DNA from: Parietichytrium sp. I65-24A
Taxonomy: Eukaryota; Sar; Bigyra; Thraustochytrida; Thraustochytriidae
Direction of reading: 5' to 3'
NCBI GenBank assembly: GCA_012862575.1
Contig: BLSF01000057.1
Span: forward strand, 124,001 to 188,000
DNA: 64,000 bases
In this document: in pieces, positions 11,386-60,704 of the stretch
Position numbering within the stretch: position 1 is the first letter of the stretch
Layout of the letters: each line of letters starts with the position of its first letter
Position numbers and translations under genes: made by a program
Notes under the pieces: generated by a model
What the model saw: only the letters and a program-made list of their open reading frames with translations
What the model was told of the DNA's origin: nothing
The model's database searches: none

Positions 11386-11505
11386 GCCTACGTCCTCGCT
11401 GCTGCTGCCGCTACTGCTGCTGCTGGCCGCCGTTTCACGCTGCGCACCCTCGCGATCAGCCGCCGCATCGCGCGAGGTTTTGGTGCGGGGAGAGGGGTAG
11501 AGAGA

Positions 11506-11776
<271 letters not shown>

Positions 11777-11857
11777 CGGAGCAGCGGTCTCTCTGGGGGG
11801 GAGAAAGGGAGAAAGAGAGGAGTGAGGGAGGGTGAGAGAGCCCTGCGCTGGAGGGCC

Positions 11858-14800: not shown

Positions 14801-17800
14801 ATAAGCTCCCCTTCTAAAGGTGAAAACAAGGCGGAGCAGCTCGCCAAGGTTCAGAAAGACATTGAGCGCGAGCGCAAGTCCGAGGCGTCTCTTTTGAAGG
14901 ATTTGGAGGGCTATAAAGCGGCTGGACGCTCGTCAGACGTTAAAAGAGCGGAAGAACGTCTTCAGTCTCAACGCGCTCGAATCGGTGTGATGCAGCTTAC
15001 TTTTAGAAAGCTGTCCCAATCCGAGAACGAGCGTATTGAGAGAGAGACTCAGGAATCCAGCGCGAGGCGAGAGCTTGACAACCTGATTCAAAGCATGAAT
15101 CGGGGCGACGAGGCGGCGGAGAAGGAGGTCTTGCCTGACGACATGGACGTAATTGACTCCTCGCCAGCTCTTGCCGTTGAAGCAATGCAGGAACTGATGC
15201 CCTCTCCGGAAGCGGACAGTGTTCTCGAGATTTGGGACTTTTTGTCCAAATTCGCTCCAGACTTGGGTCTCTGCGAGAAGCCGGAGGTGGAGGATGGGCT
15301 GTACAACCCCGAAAAGGATGATATCTTCGTTGGCGATTTAGATGCTGACGAGGGCGAGGGAGGGAACGATGACGATGATGACGAGAAGGAGGTCGACATG
15401 GAAGACGATGATGATGATGATTACGAGGAGATGGACGAAGAAGAGGAGGAGGAAAATGAAGACGATGAAGATGAGGAGGCCGATGGCGACGATGGCGACA
15501 TGGACCTGGATTCCAAGCCCGAGCGGTCAAGTAAGAAGAGCAAGTCGAAAAAGAAGCAGCCCAAGGTGTCGAATGGAGTGCTGGTATTGCCAAATTCACA
15601 GCTCACGCAGCTTGGGCTTTTCAGCTCCAAAAAGAAGAATAAAAGCCGCTCGAGACCAGTCATGACGGAGTCGCCCGAGAAGTCGCCAGTAATGCTGTTT
15701 CCAGAAATCAGACGAGCATTGGAAGATTGCGACATGAAATTGCTCGGTCCCGTCCATGTGTTAATGCTCGAATTTCTTTTTCTTGGAGAAACGGCGGTTG
15801 ACCTCACAGAGGCTGCAAAGGAAAGAAGCCTTTCGGCTCGCCGCTACGTGCCTATCAACGAGTCCACTTGGCAAGAGGTGATGCGGTACTACCTTATGTT
15901 CTTGGTCAAGCAACTGCAATCAGGGAGAGAGAACCCAACTATCAAGGAAACTTTGCACCGGCTCGATCTCTCTGTGAGCTGCATCATGAGTAAGGCAATC
16001 GATTTGCAAATACGCGACGATGACGCAGAGGATGAAGATGGCGAGGAGATTAGCCAAAATGCGCGTCGTAACGCCCGCCGCGCAGCGAAGGCTAAACTCA
16101 TCACATCTCGTGACGCTGCTCTTGGGTCTATAATTCAGCGGGTCAAAGCGTTGGCGCAAGTGGAGTTCAGCGGAAGCGGAAGTGCAGAGTTGCTTTTGCT
16201 GTATCCTACCCCTGCCATGATCAAGACGCCTTACGCACCTCCGCCAACTCTGGCCAAGCTCAAGCCGATTATTCCGATTTTGCCAACGTTGAAGCCAAAG
16301 TCGAAGCCAAAGTCCAAACCTATCGCGAAGTCCAAGGCTGCGAAAAGTTTGCCATCAAATCTCCTTCCTCAGGTGATGTCTAAGGTTTCGCACGCAACAA
16401 TTGCAGAGATGCCGCCTTGGGCTCAGAAGCTCATTGAAATCAGGGAAATGCCAACGAATCGCGGCTCGCGAATTCGGGCCTGCGTTCAGGAAACTATCGG
16501 TATCATCGGCTCCGCCACTGGACTGGACGACGTTCTCAATGTCTTAACAGCGCTCATCAAACCAGGAGTGTTCAAGTCCAACGCAGCTGGTCCTTGCAAA
16601 CGCGCTTGCTTGACCTTAATCGCAGAGAAATTTACTGATAAATTCCCAGACCTGGTGGAGGCACGGCAGGTGGCACAAGCGGCACAGGCTGCAACTTCAA
16701 ACTCTGTTTCTGGGGAGCCTGAAGTAGGTGGCGACGTGGACATGGAAGACGACCAAGCGCTGGAGGAGGAAGAGGAAGAAGCTCCGCCAACCAAAAAATC
16801 GTCCGCAAGCGCGAAGAAAAAGAAAAAGTCTTCGAAACGCCAATCCAATGGCGCAAGCGCCTCTGCGGCGCGCGTCGCAGAGCCTGCCCCTCTGCCAGCA
16901 GTGTCAATGTCTGCTCCAAAACCTTTCAAGGAGGAAGCCTTGCCAATGACTGACGACATGACGCAGAGATGCCGCGCGATCATTCGAACAATTGCGCAAG
17001 ACACCCGAGCGGAGCTCTTCCGAGAGCCAGTAGACACGAGCATTTTTAGCGATTACTTGGACTATGTTCAAGAGCCCATGGACCTGCGCACCATTGACCG
17101 CAACCTTGCAAAGCATAAATACGAAGTCGTTGGTGACTTTGTTAAGCATGTTTACCTAATCTGGGATAATTGCGTAAAGTACAACACCGCCGTAGCAGAG
17201 ATCTCTCACATCGCCAAACTCCTTCGATCAGACAGCGAGACCCTGATTCGAGCCTGGATCCGAAAGGAGTCCAGGTCCGTCAAAGCAAACCCTTTCAACT
17301 TTGAGAAGAAGCTACCGCCCGCACCTTGGGAGGAGGAGGCTCCAGTCGCCTCTGGAACTCCTGGAGCGGAGTCCTCCGCAACTGGAGGCAAGTCAAGCAA
17401 AAAGAGGAAGAGGCAGAAGGTGACGGCGAGTTCTTTCGAAATCTCCTCTGCGCTAACGGTTAAAGGCTTTAGTAGCGATGGTCCGCATGTCGGAGTGCGA
17501 ATCGCCCGGCGACAGGACGATGGTAGTTTTGAGCGTGGAACCATCGTTGCTTACCACGATGGTAGTGGCGGTCAGTGGCACATCAAATTTGACGATGATG
17601 GCGAAGAAGTCACTTTTAACGAAAAACAAATCAAGGAAGGCTTTGAAGTGTACGGGGAGTACAGCTCAGCAAAGAAGAAGAGTAGGAAGGACAAGAAGGA
17701 GAAAAAGAAGAAGGACAAGAAGAAGAAGAGTAAAAAGAAGAAGGGTACGAATGTGAGCGAGGAAGAGAACGAGGACGGCGAGGAAGAAGATGCTCCGGCC

Positions 17801-20029
17801 ACTCCGCCCTCGAAGCCAAGCAAAGCTCCTGAAGAGCCGCTGGCATCTGAAAAGAAGAAGAGCAAGAAGAAAAAGTCCAAGAAGAAGGGCGAGCTCGAGG
17901 ACGACGAGGATGAGGATGGGGAGGTCCCCTCCAAGCCGCACGCAAGCTCTGCTTCAAAGAGCAAGAAAAGAAAGTCCAGTGATGCAGACTTGGAGCCCGG
18001 TCTGTCAGATGCCGAGGAAAAAGACGGTGACAAAGTCGACTTTGATCCCGCAAATCCAGAAGGAAAAATTCTCCTGCGTCTCGACACGTTCCCAGACTAT
18101 GCGTTTCTCGGAGGAATAATCACAAAGTGGTTTGAAGATCTTGGCTGCATTGAGGGAGTTGTAACTCTCTACGACGAAGATACTGAGGTGTTCACAATCG
18201 AATTCCCAGAGACTGAAATCGTTTTGAAGGTCAAGCGTGCAGAGCTTGAGTCCCTCGAGAAGGACTCAGCGTTGCTACGAATTGGCAGCGACCGCAATGG
18301 GGTGGAGGACGAGCAAGTTGAGCTTGATCGAATCGAAGCTTTCGACCCAGAGCGGCAACGCTGTTATCGCCGCGTGAAGCCAAGCGATCCTCTTAAAGAG
18401 GAAGAGGAGGACGATGACGATGACGATGTACGGCCCATGCAACCCATTGTTAACAGCACCGAGGTCATTGGTGATGCTCTTGCGCCACCGGTGGTAGATC
18501 GTCGAAAAGAAATTGTTGCTCTACGAAAGCTGGTAGTGGAGTTGGGTACCAAGAAGTATGAAGAGTTGAGCTTTGAGCTCAGGACAACACTTCTTCGCGT
18601 TCTTTGTGAGCAAGTCGCTGAGAGCGGGACTCTTCGCGAGATTGTGGAACGTCGAATGCTAATAGCCATTAAAACGCGTCAGATGTGGAGAGATCATCCC
18701 CCGGTGGTGAAAAAGGACCCGAAATACTACCTTCCCGTCTCCACAGGCCCAGATCTTCTTATCGGTGACAACCCCTCGGAGCAAAGCGCATTAGAGCGTC
18801 GCCTCCAGAAATTCAAGGAGAGTTCTGCCCCGAAAAATTTGATGCGAGCGATAGAGCGCGTGGAAAAGGATTTGGAAAAGCAGAAGAAAAAGAAGCAATT
18901 TAAAGATGAGGCGAGGCGATGGAAGACCGAGCTGGAGTTCAAGCTGCAAACGGTGGCCACAAGACCGAGGATAATTGGAATGGACCGCTTCTTTAACCGC
19001 TATATTTGTTTTCCTGGTGATAGTGGCAAAGCCTTTGTGTGCCTCAGCGACGAGACATTCAAATCAAACCCGTCGCTACGCGGCCGCGATAACTGTTGGC
19101 GAGTTCTTCAGGGGCGCGAGAATATCAATCGTTTTTTAGCAAGCCTGAACCCCAAGGGTGCTCGTGAGGCGGCTCTGTTGGGCGCATTTCAAGCTCGCGC
19201 GAGTTTGTTTTTGCGCTGCCAACGCTCTCTCACTCTATGGCAAGAGGCAGAGGGCCGCATCGGGTCTACCTCGCAAACCTCAGCGATCAAGAAGGAGGTT
19301 GATGGTGACACTCTTATGGACAGTGATCGTAAACCATCAGTCAAGCAAGAATCTGGTGTCGCCGAACCTGAGGGTGCCGATGTCCCAGTAAAATCGGAAG
19401 CAGTTAAGGTCGAGAAGGACGGAGAAAGCTCCGCCGAGGAGGAAGAGCGCCTTGCGCAGCAGTCTCTTGTGGGTAAGCAACTCGCTCTCGCGGAAATGAA
19501 CAAGGGTATGATCGGAGAATTCCCTCGCCGTTTCTACAATAGTTCGCAAGCCGGAATTGTCCTCGGTGAGGAAGTTGTTTTGCGCCATACCCGAGCTTGC
19601 GAGGACGCATCGCCAGCAATACTTCGCGAAGGAACGTACACTGATCGAACACTGTTGGATGTCAAGGTCTTCTTGCTAAACATCGAGTACTGTGTATTCC
19701 TCACTCGTCTGGATGAGCCTGCTGCAAGCTGGCTTTACGGACTGAGAAAAGGATGGATTCGCCTCGTCACCTCTGCAACGGAGTGGCGCGATCTTCGCCA
19801 AGCCTGCTGTATGCTTGAAGTGGCATTGATTGGAGCTTCGGTACCCACAGAAAACTGGTATCCAAACCTATACGGCGATGCAGGTTACGCTCTTCGCACG
19901 CGAACTTGTTCAAGCCTTGCCTCACGAGTGAGTGCTCTGGACTACGCAATTAATCACGAGGATCTGTCACGACAGGCTGTGCAGCGTGCCAAATCTAAGG
20001 CGCGTAACAAGAAGAAGCGCAAACGTTAA
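11858..20029 (+). CDS. Giant chromatin protein: two bromodomains, FYRN/FYRC, RAMA, DDT, Tudor-like and WHIM-like segments
   Basis: 2723 residues in one exon. I chose the ATG at 11858 (GCCATGG, MAEFPRD) over an in-frame ATG 36 bases upstream. In order: bromodomain 1 (about 9-134, PMDLSTV and NCIKFN, the acetyl-lysine Asn); acidic and Ser-rich linker; FYRN/FYRC (about 479-549, FPLGFTSECEFF then PLFRVTD and GSSPTEAW); RAMA-like domain (about 688-764, LKDLVRVG, NSDGQIVHEG, DDGWKSC); long charged coiled coil (about 895-1085); DDT-like helices (from about 1122, VLEIWDFLSKFAP) split by an Asp/Glu insert; bromodomain 2 (about 1700-1805, PMDLRTI, NCVKYN); two Tudor-like segments (about 1862-1935 and 2069-2158) around Lys-rich tracts; WHIM-like C-terminus (about 2213-2458, RPRIIGMDRFFNRYICF). 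DDT plus WHIM is typical of ISWI-partner subunits (ACF1/BAZ), so a nuclear remodeller subunit or histone/DNA-mark reader is inferred. RAMA is proposed in the literature to recognise modified DNA. Domain calls are by eye; the Tudor-like and DDT calls are the weakest. Confidence 0.82.
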   Translation: MAEFPRDRVHGCRAVLRKVLQDFPMALAFCKPIDTTKNEEYLKVVDEPMDLSTVDRKLCATAQTLGVEVECSFSKAGLGNVAVYKCLYDYKKDVELVFQNCIKFNGAESPMGQVAGKVGELFRELYNKWLLDSVMAGTKPWEKEELPVAPWDQSGPVARRNSITGKPSGVAAAMAGKAKRDSAASSNSEGESSDDEKSSSSSSSSGDDDDDDDEGDDNDNDDDDDDSESSGSGDDDEDESDSEDDDDDEGDDRSSRANGTPTRNESRRKSEPAPSSKRVAQGAKGSSSTRKSSRPRKRPARDLKGMAVILVCGIHQLAEEMRENTLDELAPHFEKLHSILDWLQKAQPDKEEIISSWKIEIIRRLVGATKGSLDSYFLTPEFKRLRQKKDVCAFLGIQGEDEWNNESAFRAANQDMAKFFVDPSSGMPSEAEASPVPEDFGNLKVGPRRRLDKPINCGNVVILDLGRVVDAPGFLTKKHVFPLGFTSECEFFSSRLPGKMTKYRNEVLLSEDKTEPLFRVTDVHHKNFVEGSSPTEAWTLMIVDILIGMHKYWENLALGVKVSDEVCALNVLPSNASRALAKTEDEDKKMELIQKEVDKVLQHLLKKVEANVLRDLLVSKTQGAGGNGEPSEQLSSVVDDESSGSLVPATASVAPVAKAVEEEKPRSIVDSTASPAENGQKKRKAVTLKDLVRVGRISPDGPGIEVEYQGHKFRATINSDGQIVHEGVRFDTPSAFSITVKRKVNPSKMADDGWKSCTYNGDNLHVVKRSLTEEDLERIEEFKKEMAESSLSLKRENALLDLDSSLNGKGIGDKNFLAGAPNLHLLPQPHQIQWWQVDLTPMLNEQLGKYLFGLDQPIVLDVVEALPMMDKVGIYRFRVQRGTEDKDNLRIQKRNGMLYTRITKAVQRIVKHQDAVDRRVEAAARRQMRIEDRFARNWRIHMKKVDREAAAATRKEDREMRLKEKQSILEALVNLREEMKMISSPSKGENKAEQLAKVQKDIERERKSEASLLKDLEGYKAAGRSSDVKRAEERLQSQRARIGVMQLTFRKLSQSENERIERETQESSARRELDNLIQSMNRGDEAAEKEVLPDDMDVIDSSPALAVEAMQELMPSPEADSVLEIWDFLSKFAPDLGLCEKPEVEDGLYNPEKDDIFVGDLDADEGEGGNDDDDDEKEVDMEDDDDDDYEEMDEEEEEENEDDEDEEADGDDGDMDLDSKPERSSKKSKSKKKQPKVSNGVLVLPNSQLTQLGLFSSKKKNKSRSRPVMTESPEKSPVMLFPEIRRALEDCDMKLLGPVHVLMLEFLFLGETAVDLTEAAKERSLSARRYVPINESTWQEVMRYYLMFLVKQLQSGRENPTIKETLHRLDLSVSCIMSKAIDLQIRDDDAEDEDGEEISQNARRNARRAAKAKLITSRDAALGSIIQRVKALAQVEFSGSGSAELLLLYPTPAMIKTPYAPPPTLAKLKPIIPILPTLKPKSKPKSKPIAKSKAAKSLPSNLLPQVMSKVSHATIAEMPPWAQKLIEIREMPTNRGSRIRACVQETIGIIGSATGLDDVLNVLTALIKPGVFKSNAAGPCKRACLTLIAEKFTDKFPDLVEARQVAQAAQAATSNSVSGEPEVGGDVDMEDDQALEEEEEEAPPTKKSSASAKKKKKSSKRQSNGASASAARVAEPAPLPAVSMSAPKPFKEEALPMTDDMTQRCRAIIRTIAQDTRAELFREPVDTSIFSDYLDYVQEPMDLRTIDRNLAKHKYEVVGDFVKHVYLIWDNCVKYNTAVAEISHIAKLLRSDSETLIRAWIRKESRSVKANPFNFEKKLPPAPWEEEAPVASGTPGAESSATGGKSSKKRKRQKVTASSFEISSALTVKGFSSDGPHVGVRIARRQDDGSFERGTIVAYHDGSGGQWHIKFDDDGEEVTFNEKQIKEGFEVYGEYSSAKKKSRKDKKEKKKKDKKKKSKKKKGTNVSEEENEDGEEEDAPATPPSKPSKAPEEPLASEKKKSKKKKSKKKGELEDDEDEDGEVPSKPHASSASKSKKRKSSDADLEPGLSDAEEKDGDKVDFDPANPEGKILLRLDTFPDYAFLGGIITKWFEDLGCIEGVVTLYDEDTEVFTIEFPETEIVLKVKRAELESLEKDSALLRIGSDRNGVEDEQVELDRIEAFDPERQRCYRRVKPSDPLKEEEEDDDDDDVRPMQPIVNSTEVIGDALAPPVVDRRKEIVALRKLVVELGTKKYEELSFELRTTLLRVLCEQVAESGTLREIVERRMLIAIKTRQMWRDHPPVVKKDPKYYLPVSTGPDLLIGDNPSEQSALERRLQKFKESSAPKNLMRAIERVEKDLEKQKKKKQFKDEARRWKTELEFKLQTVATRPRIIGMDRFFNRYICFPGDSGKAFVCLSDETFKSNPSLRGRDNCWRVLQGRENINRFLASLNPKGAREAALLGAFQARASLFLRCQRSLTLWQEAEGRIGSTSQTSAIKKEVDGDTLMDSDRKPSVKQESGVAEPEGADVPVKSEAVKVEKDGESSAEEEERLAQQSLVGKQLALAEMNKGMIGEFPRRFYNSSQAGIVLGEEVVLRHTRACEDASPAILREGTYTDRTLLDVKVFLLNIEYCVFLTRLDEPAASWLYGLRKGWIRLVTSATEWRDLRQACCMLEVALIGASVPTENWYPNLYGDAGYALRTRTCSSLASRVSALDYAINHEDLSRQAVQRAKSKARNKKKRKR

Positions 20030-33995: not shown

Positions 33996-35195
33996 CTACA
34001 ACTTCTTCGCAGTCCGCCTTTCGTGAATAATAGACTTTGGGTACTGCACTCCGTCCAGTTCCTCGACATAGTGGCAGTCGCGAGCAGTCTTCCACAGTGC
34101 TTTGTGGATAGGGGCTGGGTCGTACTTGTAGTGCGATTTAAGTACAGGGATGAGTGCTTTCGTAGCCTCCTGAGCGTGGTAATGAGGAAGCTCATGAAAG
34201 ATGTGGTGGCAAACGTGGGTACTTCCGATGTGATGGTGCAGCTCATCAATGATCCAAGGATATGGACGATCGATGGTGTTCACTGCACCACGCAGCCAGG
34301 ACCATTCGTCCTCTCCGAAATGTGGCACGCTAGCATCGCTGTGCTGAAGCCATGTGTAGCCCACGAGCCAAGCGTTGACAATCAAATATGGTCCGCCGTA
34401 CATGAGCGCAACGGTTTTTACGCCGTATATTGTTGACGCGTATGCGAGGATGGCGAGCATCCCGAAGATTCCAGCGCTGGAGAGGAAAACCTTGAAGCGG
34501 AGATGCTCTGGGAAGAGCTCGTTGCTTGCAAATGGGCTAAAATGGTTTGGCTTCTTGGAGTACCTCTGCTTGGTGACTGGGCTCCTGCGAGATCCGGTAG
34601 CGTGCCAGAACAAGTACATGAGCCATCCAAAGCCGAGGTGCAGGATAATCTGCAGAAGGACAAATGCATCTTCACCAACGGCGTCGAGAACCTTGGTGTA
34701 CAGTTTGTGCACTTTGCGCTTCAGATCAGGAACGTGACTCTCACCATCCAGCAAATGATTGCATTTGGCGTGGTGAACCTTGTGGGTTCTCTGCCAGGAA
34801 AAGTAAGGAACCAAGAGCGCAGAGTGAGTGAAGAAGCCGACAAAGTCATTGATGAAATTGCTCGAAGAGTATGCATAGTGCCCGCACTCGTGACCAACCA
34901 CCCAAAGGCTGGTCATGATGGTTCCCTGGCACACGGCATAGACCCCCCACAGGAAAAGGTTCACCAAAGTCAAGTCCATGGAGAGTGTGTTGTAGGCCAG
35001 GTAGCCGAACGCTGCAACAAAGGCTGCATCGCGCAGCAGAAAGAATGTGCTTTTCAAGGCTGAGCGCTCGAAGCAGTGTTTAGGAACGGCATCGCGAAGT
35101 TCTTTGACGGAAGGAAGCTTCTCTTCCAACTGAGGTGCGAGGGGGGCCTCGCCGGACTGCCCGACTCCCCTGTGTTTCACTTCGCTCTGACACAT
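33996..35195 (-). CDS. Membrane fatty acid desaturase, delta-12/omega-3 class
   Basis: 399 residues, one exon, ATG at 35195. These ER enzymes insert a double bond into acyl chains with a di-iron centre and cytochrome b5. All three histidine boxes are present: HECGH (102-106), HKVHH (138-142) and HVCHH (327-331). Hydrophobic helices lie between boxes 1 and 2 and boxes 2 and 3. The HECGH first box and WQRTHKVHH second box are typical of delta-12/omega-3 acyl-lipid desaturases (oleate to linoleate). There is no fused cytochrome b5 domain, as expected for this class and unlike delta-4/5/6 front-end enzymes. Regiospecificity cannot be read from sequence alone. It converges with the tubulin ligase gene. 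Confidence 0.93.
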   Translation of the reverse strand: MCQSEVKHRGVGQSGEAPLAPQLEEKLPSVKELRDAVPKHCFERSALKSTFFLLRDAAFVAAFGYLAYNTLSMDLTLVNLFLWGVYAVCQGTIMTSLWVVGHECGHYAYSSSNFINDFVGFFTHSALLVPYFSWQRTHKVHHAKCNHLLDGESHVPDLKRKVHKLYTKVLDAVGEDAFVLLQIILHLGFGWLMYLFWHATGSRRSPVTKQRYSKKPNHFSPFASNELFPEHLRFKVFLSSAGIFGMLAILAYASTIYGVKTVALMYGGPYLIVNAWLVGYTWLQHSDASVPHFGEDEWSWLRGAVNTIDRPYPWIIDELHHHIGSTHVCHHIFHELPHYHAQEATKALIPVLKSHYKYDPAPIHKALWKTARDCHYVEELDGVQYPKSIIHERRTAKKL

Positions 35196-36205
35196 CTTGC
35201 CAGCGGCGCGAGAGATGTACCTCAGAAACCCTCACTCGAAACAAGTCCACTGGACGTCTTTTGGGGACTGCCAACCCGACCAAATCCCGGAGAATCACAC
35301 GCCTGTGAGGTGAAGATGGCCAAAGAGGAGAACTGATGAGGAACATTGTAAACTTGTGTTTGTTCTGCCAACTTGTAGGTGAATCTTACTTGCACTCGTG
35401 AGACAGCGAGTCCGTCATCGGCCAATGCCGTAGCTCTGCCCCAGCCTTCAACGTGGCCAAACTATGTCAAACCGCTCCTCAGCTTGCATAGTTCGTACCA
35501 AGCTTCGCATGACCAAGCAGAAGACGCAAGCCACACCAACGTTTCTGCTAGGGATGCTGGGAATGACTTTGTTTCTTTTTTTCTTTTTTTGCTGGCGCTG
35601 ACTGGGGGTGTCTGTGCAGTAAGAATCACAGAGATCGAGCACCCAAAGCGCACGATCCTTTTGGCAAAGGTTGAGCAAACAACACAACACTCAGCTCTTG
35701 CAGACACAGACAGACAGACACATCTGGACTCTCCGGACTCACTCCATCATGATCGCCACACTCCAAACGCTCCGCAACTTTGCAACTACCAACTGCTCTT
35801 CGAGATCTTTGGCTTCTTTGGCAGAGAAATAAACCAAACTAAATGGGAAGCCGCTCGCATGGTTCGCATGGAGTTGCTGATTGACTGATTATATTCAATC
35901 TCAATGCCTACTTTCGTCTGGTTCCGATGCAATTCGAACCAATTACCGCCGACGGTAGTCTCCGCTGGTCCCCACATCCGTCTTACAGTCAGATAAGTCA
36001 GCCCGTTCACGCTACCGGTACTCACTGTCGGAAGTAGACTCTGTGGTAAAAGTTGGGCGGGGAGCTAGGTGTTGTCTGTTGATCGCGCAATAGGTAAGGG
36101 TGGTAGGCGCGAGGGAGATGCGCTACTACGTAGTGCGAAGACATGTGCAGAACTCGTGTTGACAGTGAAAGGTTTGAATGAACGAACAACTCCATCATTC
36201 ACAGT

Positions 36206-47423: not shown

Positions 47424-47895
47424 CGGGTATGTATGGAGATGGACTTGGGGGTCTTGGGGAATAAGGAGGCAAATGCGCAAGAGGTGGTCGAGCTCGTGCA
47501 GAGACCCGGAATCACAATGAGTGATCGAATAATCGATTGAATGATTGATTTCAGTGTCACTTGATTGACTGAATGATTTCAATTGATTGACTGATTGATC
47601 GTGAGGACTTTTGGGATGGGAAAGGGGGTGGACAAACAGTGATCGACTATGGCTCTTGGACAAAGAGAAGCCAAAGACAATGCGTTCTCGTGACTTTCGC
47701 GATCCTTGTGCCAATTTTCGATTTATGCCTTGTTGACGTTTGACTCGGGATTGACGCAATGGCCCTGACATGCAGCTTCGGAATATCTGAGTTCCGGTGT
47801 TCAAGTTTTAAATCAAAAGATCATTTTATTTTTTGGATGAAGAGACTGATGAGAGGACATGGAATTCGAAGGAGGAGGACCGGGCCAAAGTGATC

Positions 47896-50800
47896 TTAGT
47901 TGGCCGGAACTGAAGTTGTCTGCTCAGAAATCGATGTAGTGAGTGAAGTTTTGGATGACTGCTGGCTTGAGGGAAAGAGCCCACGGACTTTGCCAAGTGC
48001 CCACGAGAGTCCTGCGCCAAAGACAGCTACCAACGTGACGAGAGCAGTTCGCAGCATTGCAAGCTTTGGAACGCGTGGCGAGTTGACTGGTTTGGGCTGA
48101 TACGGGCACCCTTTGCAGATGAGGTAGACAGCTTGAAGATGAATTCCGAGAACGACCCAAAGAGTCATCATGGGTTGACGTAGCAAAACAAGCCAATTGT
48201 TCGAGATGCTTTCCCGGCGAAGGTGCACACTTGCGATGAACGTTTGCGGATCTCGAGAGTCGCTTTCCGCGGCGGGTAAAGTGTCTGCTGCTCCGGAAGA
48301 GTGCTCCCAGCCAGGCATCATTTTGCCCTTGACACTTGCGCCAGGTTCTGGCTCGCGACGAGTGCTAATGGCTTTCAGGTGCAGCTCCTCTGCAGGAACG
48401 CTCAAAATCCATTGATAGTCGTGATACACGTCGAAGAAGGGACTCACGTGAAAGTCCTTCTTCCACTTGGAGCTCTTGTACATCCGGCCACGGGCAGCGT
48501 TCCCACTGTCATCGGTCTCTGCTTCGTGGCTGAAGAAGTCAAGCACATAAATCCTTCGCTCTTCCCAAGGCGTGTTGCTTACCTCCAGAACCACTGCTTC
48601 CAGGCGTGTCCTATCCGGGGTCAAGCAGTAAAACACACTGACTGGGTTAAATACCAGCCCAAAACATCGCAGGTTGGTCAGCAGTACGATGGGACCTGTT
48701 GGACGCCGCTTGCACTGCTTCTCGACAAGAAAGCGCACCTTCTCCCGCAGCGACCATTGCCCTCCTGAGGAGTCTTTCACGGCTTGAAGATAGTCTTTCT
48801 CACTCCAGGAAAAGAGATTCCAGCGATTTACACTGACCAAATGGCTGCGGGAGAATGCCCTTCCCTCCTCGGCCTCCTGAAGGTCAACCAAAGCCATCCA
48901 CACAGAGTAGCTAAAAGCGTGCTGAGCAGGAGACGCATCACGGACCTTTTCACGGCGATGGTGAACCGAGCCTCGGTATAGAAAAGAGTCTGGAGAGATT
49001 TCGACACGAGAAAATTGAGAAAAAAAAAAGTGAAAAAGAAAACAATCAAGTTAGTAGGAGAGATCTCTCTTTCACAGATCGAAAAAAGATCCCGATGCCT
49101 CAAATCACACAAGTCTTTCAATTTACGTACTCGGTGCTGCAGTAGCTTGTGTCCCCGACCCCATTGAATTGATCAACTCCGTGCGGGTCCGCGCTTGGGA
49201 CAGCAATTGGTCAGTGTTCAGCCGATTCTCGTACTCCTCTTTGAACTGGAAGAGCGTTTGAATCAAAATTGCAGTCTCCCGCAACGCGATTGCGCAAATT
49301 GGTAACAAAACTGGCCAGGGGGCGCGGAGAATCACTGGGCTCAAGAGGATTGGCACTGGCACCCAACGGACCAAAAGCATCGTCACGATATCCGCAACCC
49401 AAAGATAGCTGTACTTTGCGTTGGAGAGGTTGTAACCCCGGAAGAAAAGCAAGGTCCGCAGATGACGGATGCACGCATGGGCTTCACTCACACCGTGAAT
49501 AATTGTTAGCCCGAGCGCCGTCGTCGCTGTTTTCGTGTCTGCAGAGAGGGAATGAAAGACTAATGCCAGCAGTGCTGCTGCATGCATACCATTGAGAATG
49601 GACTTGCGAACGAGGAACCTCGAGAGAGATGCCCATGCAAGAACGCTAGCAACAAAGTGCATGGGTGACTTTATGTAATATTTCCCATTGCCAGTCCCTG
49701 ACGAGGACGAGAAGGCGAGCGCTTGTGGTGAAGAGGCCTCACCCACCTGACAAGCTCCTTCTTCGCTACCCCACGGACAAAAGTGGATCTCGCCATCCAA
49801 TTCCATCTGGGAAGAGTTGCTCTCCAAGCTGGAAGCAACTGCGGATGTTGTATCTACTTGCCAAGGTGTGGCGTTCGCCAAGCGGGTGGTGTACAGCACG
49901 TCGTGAAAGGCAATCAAGCCCGCTACAACGAGGCAGACAAATGCGGAAACGCAAAATTGGACAAAGATGAGCTCGGAACGGCGACGAAGGCGCTTTGCAA
50001 TTGCTGACGTAGAAGCATCCAGGCTTGGAAGGTAGGTTGCCACAAAAGTAGAAAAGATTACTGCCCCACAGCAAATTGTGCAGAACGATCTGATCATCGG
50101 ATCCAACGTCAGGGAGAGAACTGCAATCCAGGACATGACTGCCACCAAAGCGGGAAGCGCGACCTGTTCGTAATTCTCGAGCAGAGTAGTAGCGACTGGA
50201 TGAGACCCTTCGTCGTCCGTGCTCTCATTCAGATTATTGATGAATGTGAGCTGATAATTGCGGATGTACTTTTGTTTAAACGCCGCTTCGCAGTACGCAA
50301 AGTACATTTCAAAAACGCGAAGCCACGACTCAGGGTAGCCCAAAGTTTTAATCTGCGCCTTGTTCGCCACGAAGTTTTCTCTCCACACTCTCAACGTGAT
50401 GGCATAATCTGGGCCCATGTCAAACGCCTCTTGCAAGTCGAGGGCAGTGTGCTTTGTTGCCCACTTTACCGCGCCCAACGATGGAAGGTGGCCTCCCGGA
50501 AAGATACATTCCCTAATAAAGTCGGAAGTGGAGCAATATTTGTCGTACTTTTCATCTGGCATGGAAATGACCTGGATCACTGCCTTTCCACCTTTCTTAA
50601 GCGCCCTCTCCACCGAATCAAAGTATTCCGGAAGATGCTTGTGGCCCACGGCTTCTAGCATTTCGATGGAGACCACCTTATCAAAGGTTCCTGGAGCAAA
50701 GTTATTCTCATAGCCCGGTTCACCCTTCTCGGTAGGTCCTTGCTGAAGCCCGATCTTTCGATAATCGCAAATAATCAAATCTACTTTGTCCTCCAGCCCA

Positions 50801-52983
50801 GCAGCCTTCACACGGGCTTGTGCTTCCTTAAGCTGCTCAGTGGATATTGTGATTCCAGTTACCCGGCACCCGACGGTAGAGGCCGCACGAATGGCAAAAG
50901 AACCCCAGCCACAGCCAATCTCCAAAACGTGATCAGTAGGCTGCAGATCTGCCCGCCGAATGATCTCGTCCAGTTTCATCAATTGTGCTTCGTGGAGGCT
51001 AAGCTCTGTCTGTCCGTCGGCTACTGTCGCCCCAAACTCACGTGTGTGTATGCCCGAGGAATAAGTCATGGACTGGTCCAGAAACAACTTGTACATCTCG
51101 TTTCCCAGGTCGTAGTGCTCCTCAATATTTTTTCGGGATCCCGCTACCGTATTGTCCCTGGCGAGATGCCTCACGCTTTCAATTACGCTTCCAAAAGAGT
51201 AAGCAACGGAGGCAATGAGCCCAAACAAAGCGGAGTCCTTAGAAATCCCCAAAGGGTTTAGGGCATCCCTCAGCTGCTGACTGTTCAGGATCAAAATGTC
51301 AAATAAACCGACGAGGTTGTCCACGTCAAACATTTTGCGCCTGTAGGCCCTGCCAATGCCTATGTCGGACTCTTTCACACACATCCAAAGAAACTGGAGG
51401 TCGTACACTCGCATGTTGACGACAGGCTCGGATGCAAGACGAGCGTCTTCTGCAGTGGCTCGGCCGAACTTCAACTCGTTCCCATCCGGAAGAATCATGC
51501 GAAAGAACCCGCGCTGAAGGCCACGTGATGCCAGGGCCTTGAACACCCTCAAGCCAACTTTGACCTTCCATGTCTTGTCCGGCGAAGGGCCGCGGACCAA
51601 GTTGATACCTGGCTTCTCTGGGGCCCCGGCTTTGATCGCCCACGCTGGTGGGGTCCGACCATCCGCGGAGAGAGCAGTGCTGACTGCCACGGCGGCGCGA
51701 ATGCCATCTTCATGAAACCCTGAGCCAAGCCATGCCCCGCAGAACCACAAGCGGCGACCAGATTTGGCGGCGTTTGGGTCAGCCTGAAGCTCGTTCAGAG
51801 CCCTTTGTGCTCGCATCGCTTTGGTGTCGAAGACGGGGTGGTCAAGTACAACCTTGTGGACTACCTTTGCTGGGTCAATTTCTCCAAGCGGGTTTAATGT
51901 GCAGAGTAAAAGAGGAGCGTCCTCCGGAAGATTCTGCAGGTGATTGAGCCAGTAGGTCACACAAACCCTTGAATCGCCTGTGCTGGTGGACCGGTCCAGG
52001 ACATTCCAAGAAGCCCAAGCTTTTTTGCACAGAGGCATTTGGCTTTCGTCTGAGTGCAGGTAAACGTCATTGGCTTGATAGCGAATATCGCTCACGAGAG
52101 AGCGGTCACTTTCGGCGGCGTCGCCTTTCAGCACTTTAGCACATGTATCGGAATGGCAGGCCATCACGACATGGTCAAATGCTGATTTTTGGCCACTCTC
52201 CGTTGCGACTTGAACACCATTGCTTTCCACGGTGACTTCGACTACAGGGTCGCCGAGCAGAAAGCGGGCATTCATATTTACAAGGGCCTTGTGCACAGCG
52301 TCCACGTATTTTTCACTTCTCCCTGTCACAACTCTCCATCTCGGCCGATGGCCAAGAGGATTCAGCAAGTGATGATTGTGCATGAACGCAATGAGCGGCA
52401 AAATGGGAAAGTCCAGCATCTGATTATTTGGAACGCTCCAAACAGCAGCTGTCGTGGGCAACAAGTACTCTTTGCGAAATCGATCAGAATAATTATTTTG
52501 ATCGAGATACTCTCCAAGGGTCACAGCATCGTAACGTTCCTTGTCGTCGAGCACCAGGACACTCTCCTTTCCGAATCGAACAACCTCCCGCATCATGCGT
52601 AAGAAGGAGGGCGACACGGCATTCTTCCTCTGGGCAAAGATGGTTCCCAAGTTGTGCGACGCCCATTCCACCTGCCCATCGTCCACCGACAACGCAAAAC
52701 TCATGTCACTAGGCTCATGGTCCACGCCCAACTCTTCGAAGAATTGAGTCAAATATGGGTAAGTGGTGAGGTTGAACACCTGGAATCCCAAGTCAACAGG
52801 CGGGCGCTTGCCATCCCCTGGAAAAGTCAGGGAATGGCCACCAAGCCGCTCTTCTTCGCCGTACACAGTCACCTCAAATCCTTGCTTGGCCAAAGACCAT
52901 GCCGCCGACAATCCCGAGATGCCAGTTCCGACGACTGCGACACGCTTCCCGTGCCCGGGTGTTGCTGTGGGTGTCATTTTCAT
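47896..52983 (-). CDS. FAD amine-oxidase-like, cyclopropane fatty acid synthase, membrane and DUF1365 fusion (two exons)
   Basis: Reconstructed as exon 1 52983-49131 and exon 2 48989-47896 (phase 1), 1648 residues. Module 1 (about 10-445): FAD-binding oxidase, VAVVGTGISGLSAAWSLAKQ and GGHSLTF. Module 2 (about 468-921): cyclopropane fatty acid synthase, HYDLGNEMYKLFLDQSMTYSS, VLEIGCGWGS for SAM (about 689), and FIRECIFPGGHLPS. This enzyme class adds a methylene group to unsaturated phospholipid acyl chains. Module 3 (about 931-1250): about eight hydrophobic helices, perhaps TLC-like. Module 4 (exon 2): DUF1365, with FLYRGSVHHRREK, QHAFSYSVWMALVDL, RCFGLVFNPVSVFYC. Oxidase-synthase fusions are known in plants; bacteria keep all these as adjacent genes. 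The splice is supported by an in-frame stop upstream of DUF1365, by absence of any ATG before its conserved HRR...HxFxY motif, by matching phase, and by a TACTAAC branch site. Two separate genes remain the alternative. The start is the first ATG at 52983. Confidence 0.8.
48990..49130 (-). other. Predicted intron joining the membrane module to DUF1365
   Basis: 141 nt on the minus strand: donor A|GTACGTAAAT, a perfect TACTAAC branch-site sequence at 49056-49050, pyrimidine-rich tract, acceptor CTCTCCAG. No AG lies between the branch site and the acceptor. Unspliced, the first frame ends at TAA 49125-49123. Confidence 0.75.
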
Positions 52984-55525: not shown

Positions 55526-56735
55526 ATGGCAGCTGAGACCGACGCTCAACAGATGCGCGAGGAGGGGAGGAAGAAGATGAGCTTGGTGGACAAGCTCGTG
55601 AACAGGGTGCAGCCAGCAGTGATGCCAGTGATGGAACGCGGGTACGTACCCGACCGACTGACTCGGTTTGGCATTCGCAAGTTGCTCAACTCGATGCTCA
55701 CCGTTGTCAACTTTGAGGGCGACGCTGAGAAACAGCACGAATACCTTGAGTCGTTCATTGCAGACCTCAAGACGAGGTCGATCGCGGAGCAAACCAATGC
55801 GGCAAATGAGCAGCACTACGAAGTCCCTGCTGAGTTTTATCAGTCGATGCTTGGTCCGTACTTGAAGTACTCCTCCGGATACTGGCCGAGTGACGATTGC
55901 ACCCTGGAGGAGTCTGAAGAAGCCATGTTGAAGATGTTCTGTGAACGCGCGGGGCTCCAAGATCTAAAAAAAGGTTCCAAGGTACTTGACCTCGGCTGTG
56001 GGTGGGGCTCGCTTACCCTCTACGCTGCTCAGCATTTTCCAGATCTTGATTTCACCTGCATCTCCAATTCCAACTCGCAGAGAACTTTCATTGAGGAGCG
56101 GTGCCAGGAGCTGCATCTCTCGAACGTGCAAGCCAAAACGAGCGACATTAATGTCATGTCGTTTCAGAAAAAGCAGTTCGACCGTGTCATGAGTGTCGAA
56201 ATGTTTGAACACATGAAGGTAAGTAGTCGCACATCGTTTCTTCCGGTATGCCACTGGCCCTTGTCTAACTTTCACCGTACATCTTCGAATCTCGTAGAAC
56301 TACGAGAAGCTATTCGCAAAAGTCGCAGAGTGGCTTAAAGATGACGGCAAACTCATGGTGCACATCTTCTGCCACCACCAATTCACTTACCACTTCCAGG
56401 ATGGCTGGATGGCGGAGCGGTTCTTTTCGGGGGGCACAATGCCAAGCAAGGATCTCTTCCTTCGCTTCAATCAAGACCTCTGCGTCGACCGGCAGTGGGT
56501 CGTGAATGGCACGCACTATTCGAAAACACTGGAGGCGTGGCTCAATAGGCTGGATGAGCCCACCAATCGCGCAAAAATCCTCAAACAGTTGGCCCAGGTC
56601 TATGGCGATGGCCAAGAGCATAAGCAGCTTAACGATTGGAGAGTGTTCTGCATGGCTTGTAGCGAATTGTTTGCTTACAATGGCGGAAATGAGTGGTATG
56701 TTTGCCACTATTTGTTCTCCAAAATTGCAAAGTAG
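55526..56735 (+). CDS. SAM-dependent methyltransferase of the cyclopropane synthase / coclaurine N-methyltransferase group (two exons)
   Basis: Reconstructed as exons 55526-56218 and 56298-56735 (phase 0), 376 residues; the ATG lies in AAGATGG. Unspliced, the frame ends shortly after the donor. Visible motifs: NEQHYEVPAEFYQSMLG with YSSGYW (substrate-side family signature), VLDLGCGWGS (SAM-binding, about 153-161), FDRVMSVEMFEHMKNYEKLF spanning the splice site, and FSGGTMPSKDL. The FFSGGTMPS block resembles coclaurine N-methyltransferase-like proteins of plants and protists more than true cyclopropane synthases, which have FPGG. N-methylation of a small amine or acyl methylation are both possible; the substrate is unknown. 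It is divergent from a gene containing a true cyclopropane synthase domain. Confidence 0.85.
56219..56297 (+). other. Intron of the methyltransferase gene
   Basis: 79 nt, donor GTAAGT, acceptor CTCGTAG, phase 0; joining gives the conserved EMFEHMKNYE. Confidence 0.9.
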
Positions 56736-56991: not shown

Positions 56992-58449
56992 TTACAACTG
57001 TTCTGTGCCTTGTAATTGGTCCTTGCTTTGAAGTGGAGATTGTTTGACGCTCACCTTTCCCTCGTCGACAAACAAAGCCAATAAGGCTGCGACCAGAAAC
57101 GAAATTCCGCCCAAGACCAGAACCCAGGGAACTCCTTCCTTCTCTCCCATGTTCGTGCGAATATTGGAGACCACAATGGTAGCGACGAACTGTGCTACCA
57201 CAATGAAGATATTGAGTATGCCAAATTGGAGACCAACATCATCCCTATCCGATTCATGGCTGTAGTTCGCAGTGTATGCGAAGGGAAATGAGGTGATCAC
57301 CGACACCGGGACTCCGTAAAGCACAACCAATGCTCGAACTGTCACGATTGAATTGGGAAGGCACTTTGCTAGGATGCACATAACGCCCCCGACACCAAGC
57401 CCAAAGGAGTAGAGAGGGCGAGTTCGTTGAGGCCGGTAGAAGACTGCCCAAAGAGTAGCGCAGAGCGAGAATGAGACTTGTACAACGAAGGACGATACGC
57501 GGAGATCCTCGTACAGTTGCTCACCCTCCTCGTACCTCAATACACCATCCATCGTGCAGTTTTTCAATCCCGCAACGAGGCACCCGTCATAAACGCATGT
57601 TGAGATGTACGAGGGCAGGACTGGCCAGTACGAGAAGAGCCCGATCCAGGAAAGAAACTGAACAATACCAAGCCTCCAATTTCTCCACTTGAGTTGACGC
57701 ACGCCATCCCAAACTTGGAAGATGCACCTGGAAATAAGATTTCCACCCTCCGGTTTCCAGATTGGTTGCTCTGTCACGTAGGCGCAAATTGGTAGCAACA
57801 CGATGAGATTAACGTAAAACACGGTGGTGAAAAGCCAAAAGACATCCGTGATATCTGTGTACAAAGCGTTTTGAAATCCGAAACCAACCAGCGTCCCGAG
57901 ACCCTGGAATACGGACGCGAGAAGTTGCCCAGGAACTTGCATTGAAGCAGGTGCCAGGTCGGCTAAAAATGCTCTTGAAGGAGTTTGAATGACATTGATC
58001 GCACCATCGAGGAGACAGAACAGCACTCCTGCGATCGCGACGGACACTGTTGGATTTTCGGAGATGGAGTTGCTGCTTGCAAGCAGAAGGCTCACCACAC
58101 CGAGAAAGATAAGACCCCCAAGCATCCACGGCCGTCGTTTGCCAAGTACGCTATATGTGGAGTCGGAAAGTGCTCCAACGATGGGAGCGACGAGAAGACC
58201 CATGAGCGGGCCGCTGATCCAGATGTTGGACGACCAGAATTGTGAAAGCCCGAGAGAGCGCAAATACGGAGTCGTGGCGCTAAATTCCGCTTGCCAGATC
58301 GACTGAATACCCAGCCAAGGACTTGCAACGATTGCAAGCTTCCAGATCGCGTGCCATCTTGCTGCGTGCGTCGCTGCGCTCCCTTCTATCTCGAAGACTT
58401 TTCTCCCCATGCATGCCCCACGAGGCACGGCCGACTCCTGTTCTTGCAT
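56992..58449 (-). CDS. Sucrose/glycoside-type major facilitator (GPH/SLC45-like) transporter
   Basis: 485 residues from the ATG at 58449; the upstream in-frame TTG is ignored. About twelve hydrophobic helices span residues 35-470. The loop between helices 2 and 3 reads GLLVAPIVGALSDSTYSVLGKRRPW, matching the plant sucrose transporter and SLC45 signature (GxxxQPxxGxxSD...GRRRP). The family couples sugar uptake to protons at the plasma membrane or vacuole. Leu or Ala replaces some usual residues (for example APIVG in place of QPxxG), so the substrate is uncertain. It converges with the methyltransferase gene and may serve nutrition together with the amylase downstream, but this is only proximity. 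Confidence 0.85.
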   Translation of the reverse strand: MQEQESAVPRGACMGRKVFEIEGSAATHAARWHAIWKLAIVASPWLGIQSIWQAEFSATTPYLRSLGLSQFWSSNIWISGPLMGLLVAPIVGALSDSTYSVLGKRRPWMLGGLIFLGVVSLLLASSNSISENPTVSVAIAGVLFCLLDGAINVIQTPSRAFLADLAPASMQVPGQLLASVFQGLGTLVGFGFQNALYTDITDVFWLFTTVFYVNLIVLLPICAYVTEQPIWKPEGGNLISRCIFQVWDGVRQLKWRNWRLGIVQFLSWIGLFSYWPVLPSYISTCVYDGCLVAGLKNCTMDGVLRYEEGEQLYEDLRVSSFVVQVSFSLCATLWAVFYRPQRTRPLYSFGLGVGGVMCILAKCLPNSIVTVRALVVLYGVPVSVITSFPFAYTANYSHESDRDDVGLQFGILNIFIVVAQFVATIVVSNIRTNMGEKEGVPWVLVLGGISFLVAALLALFVDEGKVSVKQSPLQSKDQLQGTEQL

Positions 58450-60704
58450 CTTTGCCCTTCTCTGCTCCGGGCGACAGGGCGAATACACGCATGTCTCCAG
58501 CAAGACAAGGATATTTCACGTGCCTACGAGTGGTGTAAATGCCCAACGCCCAGTATTGTAGTAGCTGACATCGCCCAGTCCGCATCAGTAGATACCGACG
58601 TTGGCGATCTTTGACTCGTCTATTCTCGGGCGATGCAAAAATGTAAGGTTTCGTCAGGAACAAGGCTGACATCGACTAAGCACATGATCCCATCAGCAAG
58701 GATCCAAGATTCGCTCTGCCAATCTTCAAGACAACTGAACGCTAGCAATTGCAAGGCTTCGAACTTTCGTTCGACAAGCCAAAATCAGCGCATTTCGAGT
58801 TCTATACCAAACGGCTGTGCTCACCTTTGTTGAGATCTTGCGAGCACGTCTTCCATAACATCAGCCATGTTTTCCAGTTTCCCTCACTCCCCCTTAATAT
58901 GCATGCACTTGTCGATCAAGGAGGGAAGAGAAGTGCAGACAGGATGTTTGCCCTTTTGTTCTTCCACATCCATTTTCGTTTTAAAGAAAGAATACCAACA
59001 TCACAACGACCTGAATTTTGTTCCTGAAATCTGTCGCCCTTCTTTTTGACGATTCGCACACCGTTCCACACACAGTTATAGTGTGTATTTATTGTGGCCC
59101 ATGAGTCCAAAAGCATTGATCTGATTCTGCAAATCGCTGCTGTAACAAGTTTAGCTGCGCTTCACACCTTTCCCGAGTAGTCCCATTAATCCCATGCTCG
59201 TTTGCGCCAAGCGGTTTGCTCTGGATGTTCGGGAATGGAGTTCCGTCTCTCTACCTGTCACGTGACGAGACGGTACTCAGCACTCGTCGCTGGATTGCGA
59301 AATCAATGGCCGAGACAATTTCTCCACCGATCCAATCTTTGCTCGCAATAGTAGCCTTACAGAGGCTAAGTGGAGTTTGATCCTATACTGTGCCGTGAAC
59401 AGATCAAAACCTGCATTTAAACCTGCTTCTCGCTTTCTTCCAGTAAACCTTACCAGTGTGTGAACGTTGCTATGACTCAGTTTAATATCAATGTCGTCCA
59501 GCGGGAACAAAACTTACGTCGAAGATTGTACCGACAAAACTGCAAATTTCTAAGCGAAGGAGCTGCACCCATCCCGAGATACTATACATGGCTGCAATAA
59601 ATCATTTGCTGCTTTTTGTTCGTGATGGAGGTGGCCGTCGTGCTCGCCCTTCTTGCACAGTTGCTTACTCACAGATTCGCCAGGCTGAAATCTTGCGGCG
59701 AACCTTTCACACTGCGACGGTGTCTCACGAACACAGCAGTGGTTCCAACCTTCACACTAGAACTTCTTTCTTCATCACGACACTTGGAGGAATCGTAGTG
59801 GCAGGTGAAACAAAACGCGAAATCATGCTACTAGGTACTCAATTCTCACTCTCTGGTAGCGGAGCAGTAACTTTCGATTGGTGGATGTCAATCCGAGAGA
59901 GCGCCGACTGCCATCCACGCCACTGCCCGCCACCCTAGCCACTCAAATCTCCCCCCTCCAATCCGACACACTTCATGCTTGATTGCAATGTTCCGATGTT
60001 CATAGAAAATGCCTCTGAGCGAACACTTGCCAGATTAAGCCATCTCAGGCGCCATTCGAACAGCGTTTTTTTTTTCATGCTTCCTCCGAGCTTTGCTCGG
60101 CCGACGTCCGTCTTTCGTTTTTGCCATTGAGTCGGGGAGTCTCGAATGTTGCCTCTAACGAGTTTTTGTCTGAGTTTTTTTTTTAATCTTTGTTCCCTGG
60201 AGCACGGCAGTACTCTGTACTCCCCCATTTCGCAATCCAACTCGAACCTGGGCGGATAGGGCTGCGCAGCCGACGGCCATTTCTTTGCGATCGTTTGTTT
60301 GGGCGGTCATGTTGCCGTAAATACTCTTCGATCCAATCCTGCGGTCAGAAGAAAGATCGAATGTGCAACCTTTCCGCTAAGACTCGACTGCGAGAAAAGG
60401 TCGGGGAGCCAAAGCTTGAACAGCCGCAGACAATCGATAGGGTAATCAAAGGCACGAAATCTATGCAATCTGGCTCCCTTGTGCCTCACTCTCCGGCACT
60501 CACTCTTCTACTCGCAAGAGTCTCAGTCTCAGACCGCAGTATTGAGCGGGAAGAAAGAAGGAAAGACCTAGGCTGACTTTGGCACTTGAGCCTGGCAGGG
60601 ACAGAACGACCGGCAAGGGAAGGCAGACCCCGAACTCGAAAACCCAAACGAGCTGGAATTCCAAGAGGGCCAGAAGGAGAACAAGAGATCGAGCACACGC
60701 AGCG
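58450..60704. other. Divergent intergenic region, no gene seen
   Basis: 2.25 kb between the transporter start and the amylase start. Several 60-130 codon frames lack protein-like features. Poly-T runs near 60066-60075 and 60175-60184. The last 120 bases before 60705 are open in frame with the amylase from a TTG but are Arg/Lys/Thr-rich and precede the signal peptide, so they are treated as leader. Confidence 0.6.

Follow-up and report, generated by a model that had tools for sequence, protein, structure and literature searches.

Plants, algae, sponges and bacteria have all been reported to contain the antioxidant furan fatty acids (FuFA) (PMC3528120, PMC7922858), and the enzymes demonstrated to make them are, in the literature examined, bacterial. 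Does a fused gene on contig C57 of a eukaryotic assembly (42.5 Mb, 172 contigs) encode this pathway in a eukaryote? The stretch analysed comprises bases 124001–188000 of that contig (64 kb, hereafter the window, to which all positions refer unless another contig is named), and the fused gene occupies positions 47896–52983. With a probability of about 0.7, we propose that the locus encodes a eukaryotic FuFA pathway in one membrane-anchored polypeptide and one neighbouring gene. The predicted polypeptide combines a UfaD-like flavin adenine dinucleotide (FAD) desaturase (D), a UfaM-like S-adenosylmethionine (SAM) methyltransferase (M), an orphan membrane module and a UfaO-like DUF1365 oxygenase (O), and the neighbour is a FufM-like SAM methyltransferase.

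The fused gene and all its parts lie on the reverse strand, and the predicted protein has 1,648 residues once spliced. Exon 1 (49131–52983) is a 1,284-codon frame for which an alternative ATG at 52977, in an AAAATG context, may be the true start. Exon 2 (47896–48989) encodes the UfaO-like DUF1365 domain (Pfam match about 48088–48981), followed by a C-terminal segment that is hydrophobic by hydropathy, and a possible polyadenylation signal, AATAAA, lies about 66 nt past the stop (47825–47830). The intron between them (48990–49130; 141 nt, GTACGT...TACTAAC...CAG, phase 1) includes a sequence match to the TACTAAC branch-point consensus at 49050–49056, and its acceptor is the first AG downstream of this motif. 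A preliminary description of this DNA had claimed that such an intron joins the two frames in phase just before the upstream stop, and this holds: the joined coding sequence of 4,947 nt stays in phase and yields 1,648 residues plus a stop, with the TAA of the exon-1 frame (49123–49125) a few bases inside the intron, where it is reached if the message is unspliced. Also borne out was its further claim that the DUF1365 frame lacks an ATG ahead of the conserved start and carries an in-frame stop further up, as the frame opens after a stop at 49051–49053 and its first ATG lies past the conserved HRR...HxFxY start.

Of twelve in-phase GT–AG joins near the junction, a single one, with its intron end at 48990, brings together a consensus donor, the branch sequence and an intact DUF1365 start. 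TACTAAC occurs four times in the 64 kb, counting both strands. When the segment 49150–48985 was shuffled preserving dinucleotides (n = 20,000), the motif arose in 45 shuffles and was accompanied by an upstream GTRNGT donor and a downstream AG in one (AG 10–75 nt downstream of TACTAAC, phase not demanded). GC content is 0.355 in the intron versus 0.525 and 0.535 in the exons. For comparison, we took seven exon junctions of the same genome, six in CCT genes and one in another CMAS gene. Six of the best-scoring candidate introns there have the donor GTAAGT and one has GTACGT; they measure 66–217 nt, and the intron of the fused gene appears broadly similar to them. The domain search of the joined product that had been suggested earlier matched Pfam Amino_oxidase, CMAS and DUF1365 in the two intron-joined frames. 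We consider the joined four-module protein well supported as a prediction from the DNA.

The D module (51664–52950, residues about 12–440) matches Amino_oxidase at 1.7e-21 over residues 22–282 of the joined protein. We compared it with 93 bacterial loci, 13 from plasmids and 80 from genome contigs (the best 80 of at least 563 relatives), with whose D proteins it shares 36–45% identity. It retains 62 of the 68 columns conserved in at least 95% of the 93 bacterial rows, these rows being operon D proteins rather than tested enzymes, and its amino-oxidase fold family, FAD motif and UfaD-type conserved columns place it with UfaD by sequence. A search of the rest of the genome with this module returned weaker matches only, the top-scoring at 28% identity. 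A 519-residue frame on another contig (C16:485706–486971), 28% identical to the UfaD-like module, is a possible second flavin desaturase or oxidase. In exon 2, the DUF1365 match covers nearly the whole profile (2.3e-60) and is the only one in the whole genome. The O module keeps 18 of 19 strongly conserved DUF1365 columns (82 bacterial rows), which assigns it to UfaO by sequence and, since so many are retained, suggests that the domain is under constraint.

The M module (50251–51486, residues about 500–911) includes the N-terminal domain of the cyclopropane fatty acid synthase (CFAS) family and matches CMAS at 6e-72 over residues 617–911. In a tree of 78 rows, 41 of them operon M proteins (every second one after a length filter on 84), it falls inside the clade of D–O–M operon methyltransferases with support 100/99. 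The bicarbonate ligands of E. coli CFAS are Glu239, His266 and Tyr317 (PMC11387697); the M module retains the equivalents of Glu239 and Tyr317 and has Gln at the His266 position. Operon M proteins carry Gln there in 78 of 79 cases and Arg in one, and His occupies the position in E. coli Cfa, seven of eight other Cfa-like rows, all 20 FufM-like rows and the neighbour gene product. With the bicarbonate-ligand His replaced by Gln, the module does not match the E. coli Cfa type, and its CMAS family, operon-M clade and operon-type Gln place it with UfaM by sequence. Of 62 columns conserved in at least 95% of bacterial rows, it keeps 59. The genome's other strong CMAS-family gene (C30:79810–80714) has an intron and N-terminal hydrophobic stretches and forms a long unplaced branch in the 78-row tree; we take it to resemble fungal sphingolipid C9-methyltransferase rather than a cyclopropane synthase.

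Divergent from the fused gene and 2.5 kb away lies the FufM-like gene (55526–56735, forward strand), overlooked in the preliminary description, with exons at 55526–56218 and 56298–56735 and an intron of 79 nt between them (56219–56297, GTAAGT...TCTAAC...TAG). In the 78-row tree its product is sister (100/100) to a FufM-like clade of 25 rows, 20 from loci with a Ufa operon in the fetched stretch and five from whole genomes (three duplicating locus rows, two away from the operon). With the second methyltransferase found close to 20 of the 93 bacterial Ufa loci it shares 37–46% identity. FufM-like genes lie within the fetched flanks, many of them short, of at least 20 of these 93 loci, and 15 of 20 are opposite in strand to D, as in the window. 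All 20 FufM-like rows and the neighbour have Phe at the Cfa Ile268 position, and the neighbour keeps 89 of 103 columns conserved in at least 95% of bacterial rows. The best PDB matches of its first exon are coclaurine and pavine N-methyltransferases, with coclaurine N-methyltransferase the best. The gene is likely to be FufM. Judged by the conserved columns that they retain, the modules look functional. A major facilitator superfamily gene (56998–58515) and 15 other window proteins were tried as operon neighbours and gave no match at E ≤ 1e-4 to open reading frames (ORFs; 90 aa or more) of the 93 loci, which leaves the fused gene and the FufM-like gene as the two that this comparison ties to the bacterial loci.

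Between CMAS and DUF1365 stands a membrane module of about 360 residues (49131–50226, residues about 920–1284), with five strong hydrophobic segments by hydropathy. It has no significant relative in Pfam, PDB (best E 1.1), the plasmids, 89 bacterial loci or the rest of the genome (next best E 0.23); in Pfam, asked to E 10, the best match was E 0.1 over 11 residues. A TLC domain (TRAM/LAG1/CLN8, PF03798), first suggested by eye, was rejected: the module is absent from the 14 TLC matches of the genome and has no profile match to seven of its TLC proteins, a result that is the same with either frame of the one frame-ambiguous row or with that row removed. We infer that the module would hold the three active sites at one membrane face. 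The membrane-bound assembly line of the preliminary description stays a conjecture, as none of the searches revealed a relative of the module.

In R. sphaeroides, the monomethyl furan acid 9M5-FuFA is formed from cis-vaccenate by UfaM, UfaD and UfaO, which are sufficient for its synthesis and none of which can be deleted without blocking it; UfaO belongs to DUF1365, and FufM adds a second methyl group (PMC7380195). If the chemistry carries over from the tested bacterial enzymes, the substrate would be an 18:1-type acyl chain of a membrane lipid, which the UfaM module would methylate from SAM, with a shift of the double bond. Desaturation beside the methyl branch by the FAD-dependent UfaD module would then give a methylated conjugated diene. 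Oxygen from O2 would be inserted and the ring closed by the UfaO module, for which neither reductant nor cofactor is known according to PMC7380195. The resulting monomethyl furan acid would receive its second methyl from the FufM-like product and become a dimethyl furan acid. The biological role would presumably be the scavenging of radicals and singlet oxygen. Where the preliminary description had left cyclopropane, branched or furan-type chains open, the product can be narrowed to furan as the likeliest, because the three enzymatic modules match the UfaD, UfaM and UfaO families and the synthase is without the bicarbonate-ligand His. A fatty acid desaturase gene (33999–35231, reverse strand) about 13 kb from the fused gene is a possible supplier of unsaturated substrate.

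As to origin, D, O and M are all present in 74 of the 93 bacterial loci. Where the order is readable it is D–O–M in 67 of 70, O–D–M in two and D–M–O in one (by frame start), unlike the D–M–membrane–O order of the window. None of the 283 matched ORFs of these 93 loci contains two modules. A bacterial fusion as the source was rejected on this ground and by a survey of 120 Pseudomonadota genomes, of which 32 had DUF1365 and none had it in a frame shared with D or M (30 frames of at most 410 aa judged by length, two longer ones without a D or M match by blast). In trees using 40 of the 74 complete loci, the O module groups with six rows of Aeromonas/Vibrio/Pseudoalteromonas type (100/99). The M module groups with the sole Aeromonas row of Aeromonas/Vibrio type kept in the M tree (99/89). 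The D module joins seven mainly beta-proteobacterial rows (94/87, branch length 2.14) in a tree whose sampling favoured rows resembling the D of the window. The three trees do not agree on a donor, and a single donor operon is not supported. Viral sources were discarded too, with no D relative in 44 candidate stretches of viral contigs and no DUF1365 match in phage records. The earlier suggestion that a bacterial operon was transferred and then fused stays a plausible hypothesis, and operon transfer as such is possible; the gene order differs and the trees disagree on the donor.

Several observations weigh against the furan reading. The family assignment was made through operon relatives and not through the tested C. 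sphaeroides and R. palustris sequences, and the label FufM-like comes from genomic association and a published LIME1 match rather than from alignment to FufM itself. The D and O modules are long branches in the trees, O is just 25–38% identical to bacterial DUF1365, and the tree program flags an unusual letter make-up for the M module and the neighbour. Gln at position 266 also occurs in one of the eight other Cfa-like rows. Halomonas ufaM, overexpressed in E. coli, gives cyclic fatty acids besides the 11-methyl product (PMC12089945); because of this, and because the cotton fusions give cyclopropane acids, the methyltransferase product is unreadable from sequence alone. Splicing of the fused gene in the cell is itself a prediction, and the agreement among introns is partly built in, as the junction scoring favoured GTAAGT and a branch motif. 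A perfect TACTAAC occurs in none of the seven comparison introns, whose branch-like motifs are CTAAC or CTGAC; the acceptor is ambiguous in three of them (C25, C23, C30), and one (C16 b) has an acceptor other than the first AG. The distance from branch to acceptor is 61 nt here versus 19–44 nt in the comparison introns with a plausible branch motif. Scored by codon usage, the last 20 in-frame codons ahead of the acceptor come out no lower than the exons (0.22 versus 0.08–0.12), so this score does not discriminate.

Could the locus instead make another product? As a plant-type cyclopropane fatty acid synthase, in which an oxidase is joined to a cyclopropane synthase (CPS) and the DUF1365 module modifies or stabilises the fused protein, it would share the layout of N-terminal oxidase and synthase seen in cotton and Sterculia CPS. 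Cotton GhCPS1 and 2 yield cyclopropane acids in yeast, and deletion of the oxidase domain cuts the yield by about 70% (PMC3132707). We nevertheless regard this as rather improbable, given that the M module is without the His266 ligand, like the operon M proteins (78 Gln and 1 Arg of 79), and sits in their clade and not with E. coli Cfa, and that neither fusion to a UfaO-like domain nor a nearby FufM-like gene is known to play a part in making cyclopropane acids. Alternatively, the pathway might stop at methylated mono- or dienoic end products with DUF1365 acting elsewhere or inactive, as UfaM alone or with UfaD gives 11Me-12t-18:1 or 11Me-10t,12t-18:2 (PMC7380195). The retention of 18 of 19 strongly conserved DUF1365 columns makes us give this alternative little credence.

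The joined gene could also be two, one for D, M and the membrane module that terminates with the 49123 stop, the other for a DUF1365 protein beginning from another first exon or a non-ATG codon. The upstream frame does have its own stop, and in Arabidopsis and Chlamydomonas the annotation gives DUF1365 a gene of its own. However, the DUF1365 frame offers no in-frame ATG ahead of its conserved start and is preceded by the stop at 49051–49053, the 141-nt intron has donor, branch and first-AG acceptor all in phase, and another first exon would need to sit within the upstream gene or the 141-nt spacer; two genes are therefore unlikely. A bolder version of the furan proposal takes the enzyme to be a furan synthase born as a single polypeptide by intergenic splicing, with splicing setting the product and the membrane module passing the lipid between active sites. 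The intron would then derive from the spacer that once separated a D-M-membrane gene from a UfaO gene, with the upstream stop retained, and the spliced form would make furan acids while an intron-retaining form without the oxygenase would make methylated dienes. The position of the exon-1 stop inside the intron fits fusion through splicing out such a spacer and means that an unspliced message would give a protein without the oxygenase. Control of the product by splicing is possible, and we consider the bolder version as a whole unlikely.

The window is otherwise eukaryotic in kind, with genes for a HECT ligase, a tubulin-tyrosine ligase, a ubiquitin-conjugating enzyme, a Cas1p-type acyltransferase and a tRNA methyltransferase. 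A 2,842-residue open frame (11501–20026, forward strand) has a low-complexity Arg/Glu-rich beginning and includes undetermined residues. A profile search of the genome for a thraustochytrid polyunsaturated fatty acid synthase found nothing above the cut-off. Two large frames bear on lipid or polyketide synthesis elsewhere in the genome. One, of 5,583 residues (C66:8562–22499), matches the ketosynthase part of the PfaA profile at four places and is probably a giant modular polyketide synthase. The other, of 4,180 residues, includes C40:224000–230000 and a ketosynthase match, and the 2,000 residues inspected have the look of a type I fatty acid synthase with tandem repeats resembling acyl carrier proteins, a layout known from thraustochytrids.

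The locus offers two genes as a candidate for the whole of FuFA synthesis in a eukaryote. With M, D and O linked in a single chain, the methyl-diene intermediate may be passed on and not released, and the fused chain would offer production strains a natural design; in yeast, joining BfaA and BfaB artificially raised product conversion (PMC7791843). Neither a D–M–O nor a D–M–membrane–O fusion was found in the 93 bacterial loci or in the excerpts of the literature searched, which is no proof of absence from print.

Among known systems, UfaD, UfaO, UfaM and FufM of R. sphaeroides and R. palustris represent the same three enzyme families as the fused modules, and the window likewise encodes a second, FufM-like methyltransferase (PMC7380195). 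However, the bacterial Ufa proteins are encoded by separate genes with no membrane module in the relatives examined, and the window enzymes are likened to the tested ones through operon relatives. A ChrR anti-sigma gene lies within the fetched stretch of five annotated plasmid loci, with the sigma factor beside it in four, an arrangement reminiscent of the R. sphaeroides genes, whose setting is chrR-controlled and linked to singlet oxygen. The Desulfococcus oleovorans DUF1365-methyltransferase protein also has DUF1365 fused to a methyltransferase, as here, but it is bacterial and has two domains, given in the opposite order in one table row, with a methyltransferase labelled OMT (PMC2613160). 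Cotton GhCPS and Sterculia CPS have an FAD oxidase followed by a CFAS-family synthase in one chain, as here; they differ in their cyclopropane product, and DUF1365 is not mentioned in the available part of that paper (PMC3132707). In Arabidopsis, AtUFAMD1 (AT3G23510), AtUFAO1 (AT1G30130) and AtFUFM1/LIME1 belong to the same families, with D and M in one protein; unlike the fused gene, UfaO is a separate gene there, no membrane module is reported in the excerpt, and function is assigned by homology (PMC10940516). All three are located at lipid droplets (PMC10940516), a location also given for UFAO1 in PMC12712439. Chlamydomonas has CFA1, CFA2 and the DUF1365 gene Cre06.g269300, related families encoded by separate genes whose function is not shown in PMC4067076, where all three are tabulated as needing SAK1 for singlet-oxygen induction. 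Cre09.g398700 appears in that paper as CFA2 in one table and as coclaurine N-methyltransferase (CPLD27) in another. Furan modification in Chlamydomonas is stated to be under study (PMC8491031), and because CFA2/CPLD27 is induced by singlet oxygen along with CFA1 and the DUF1365 gene, this alga may hold the same FuFA pathway as separate genes.

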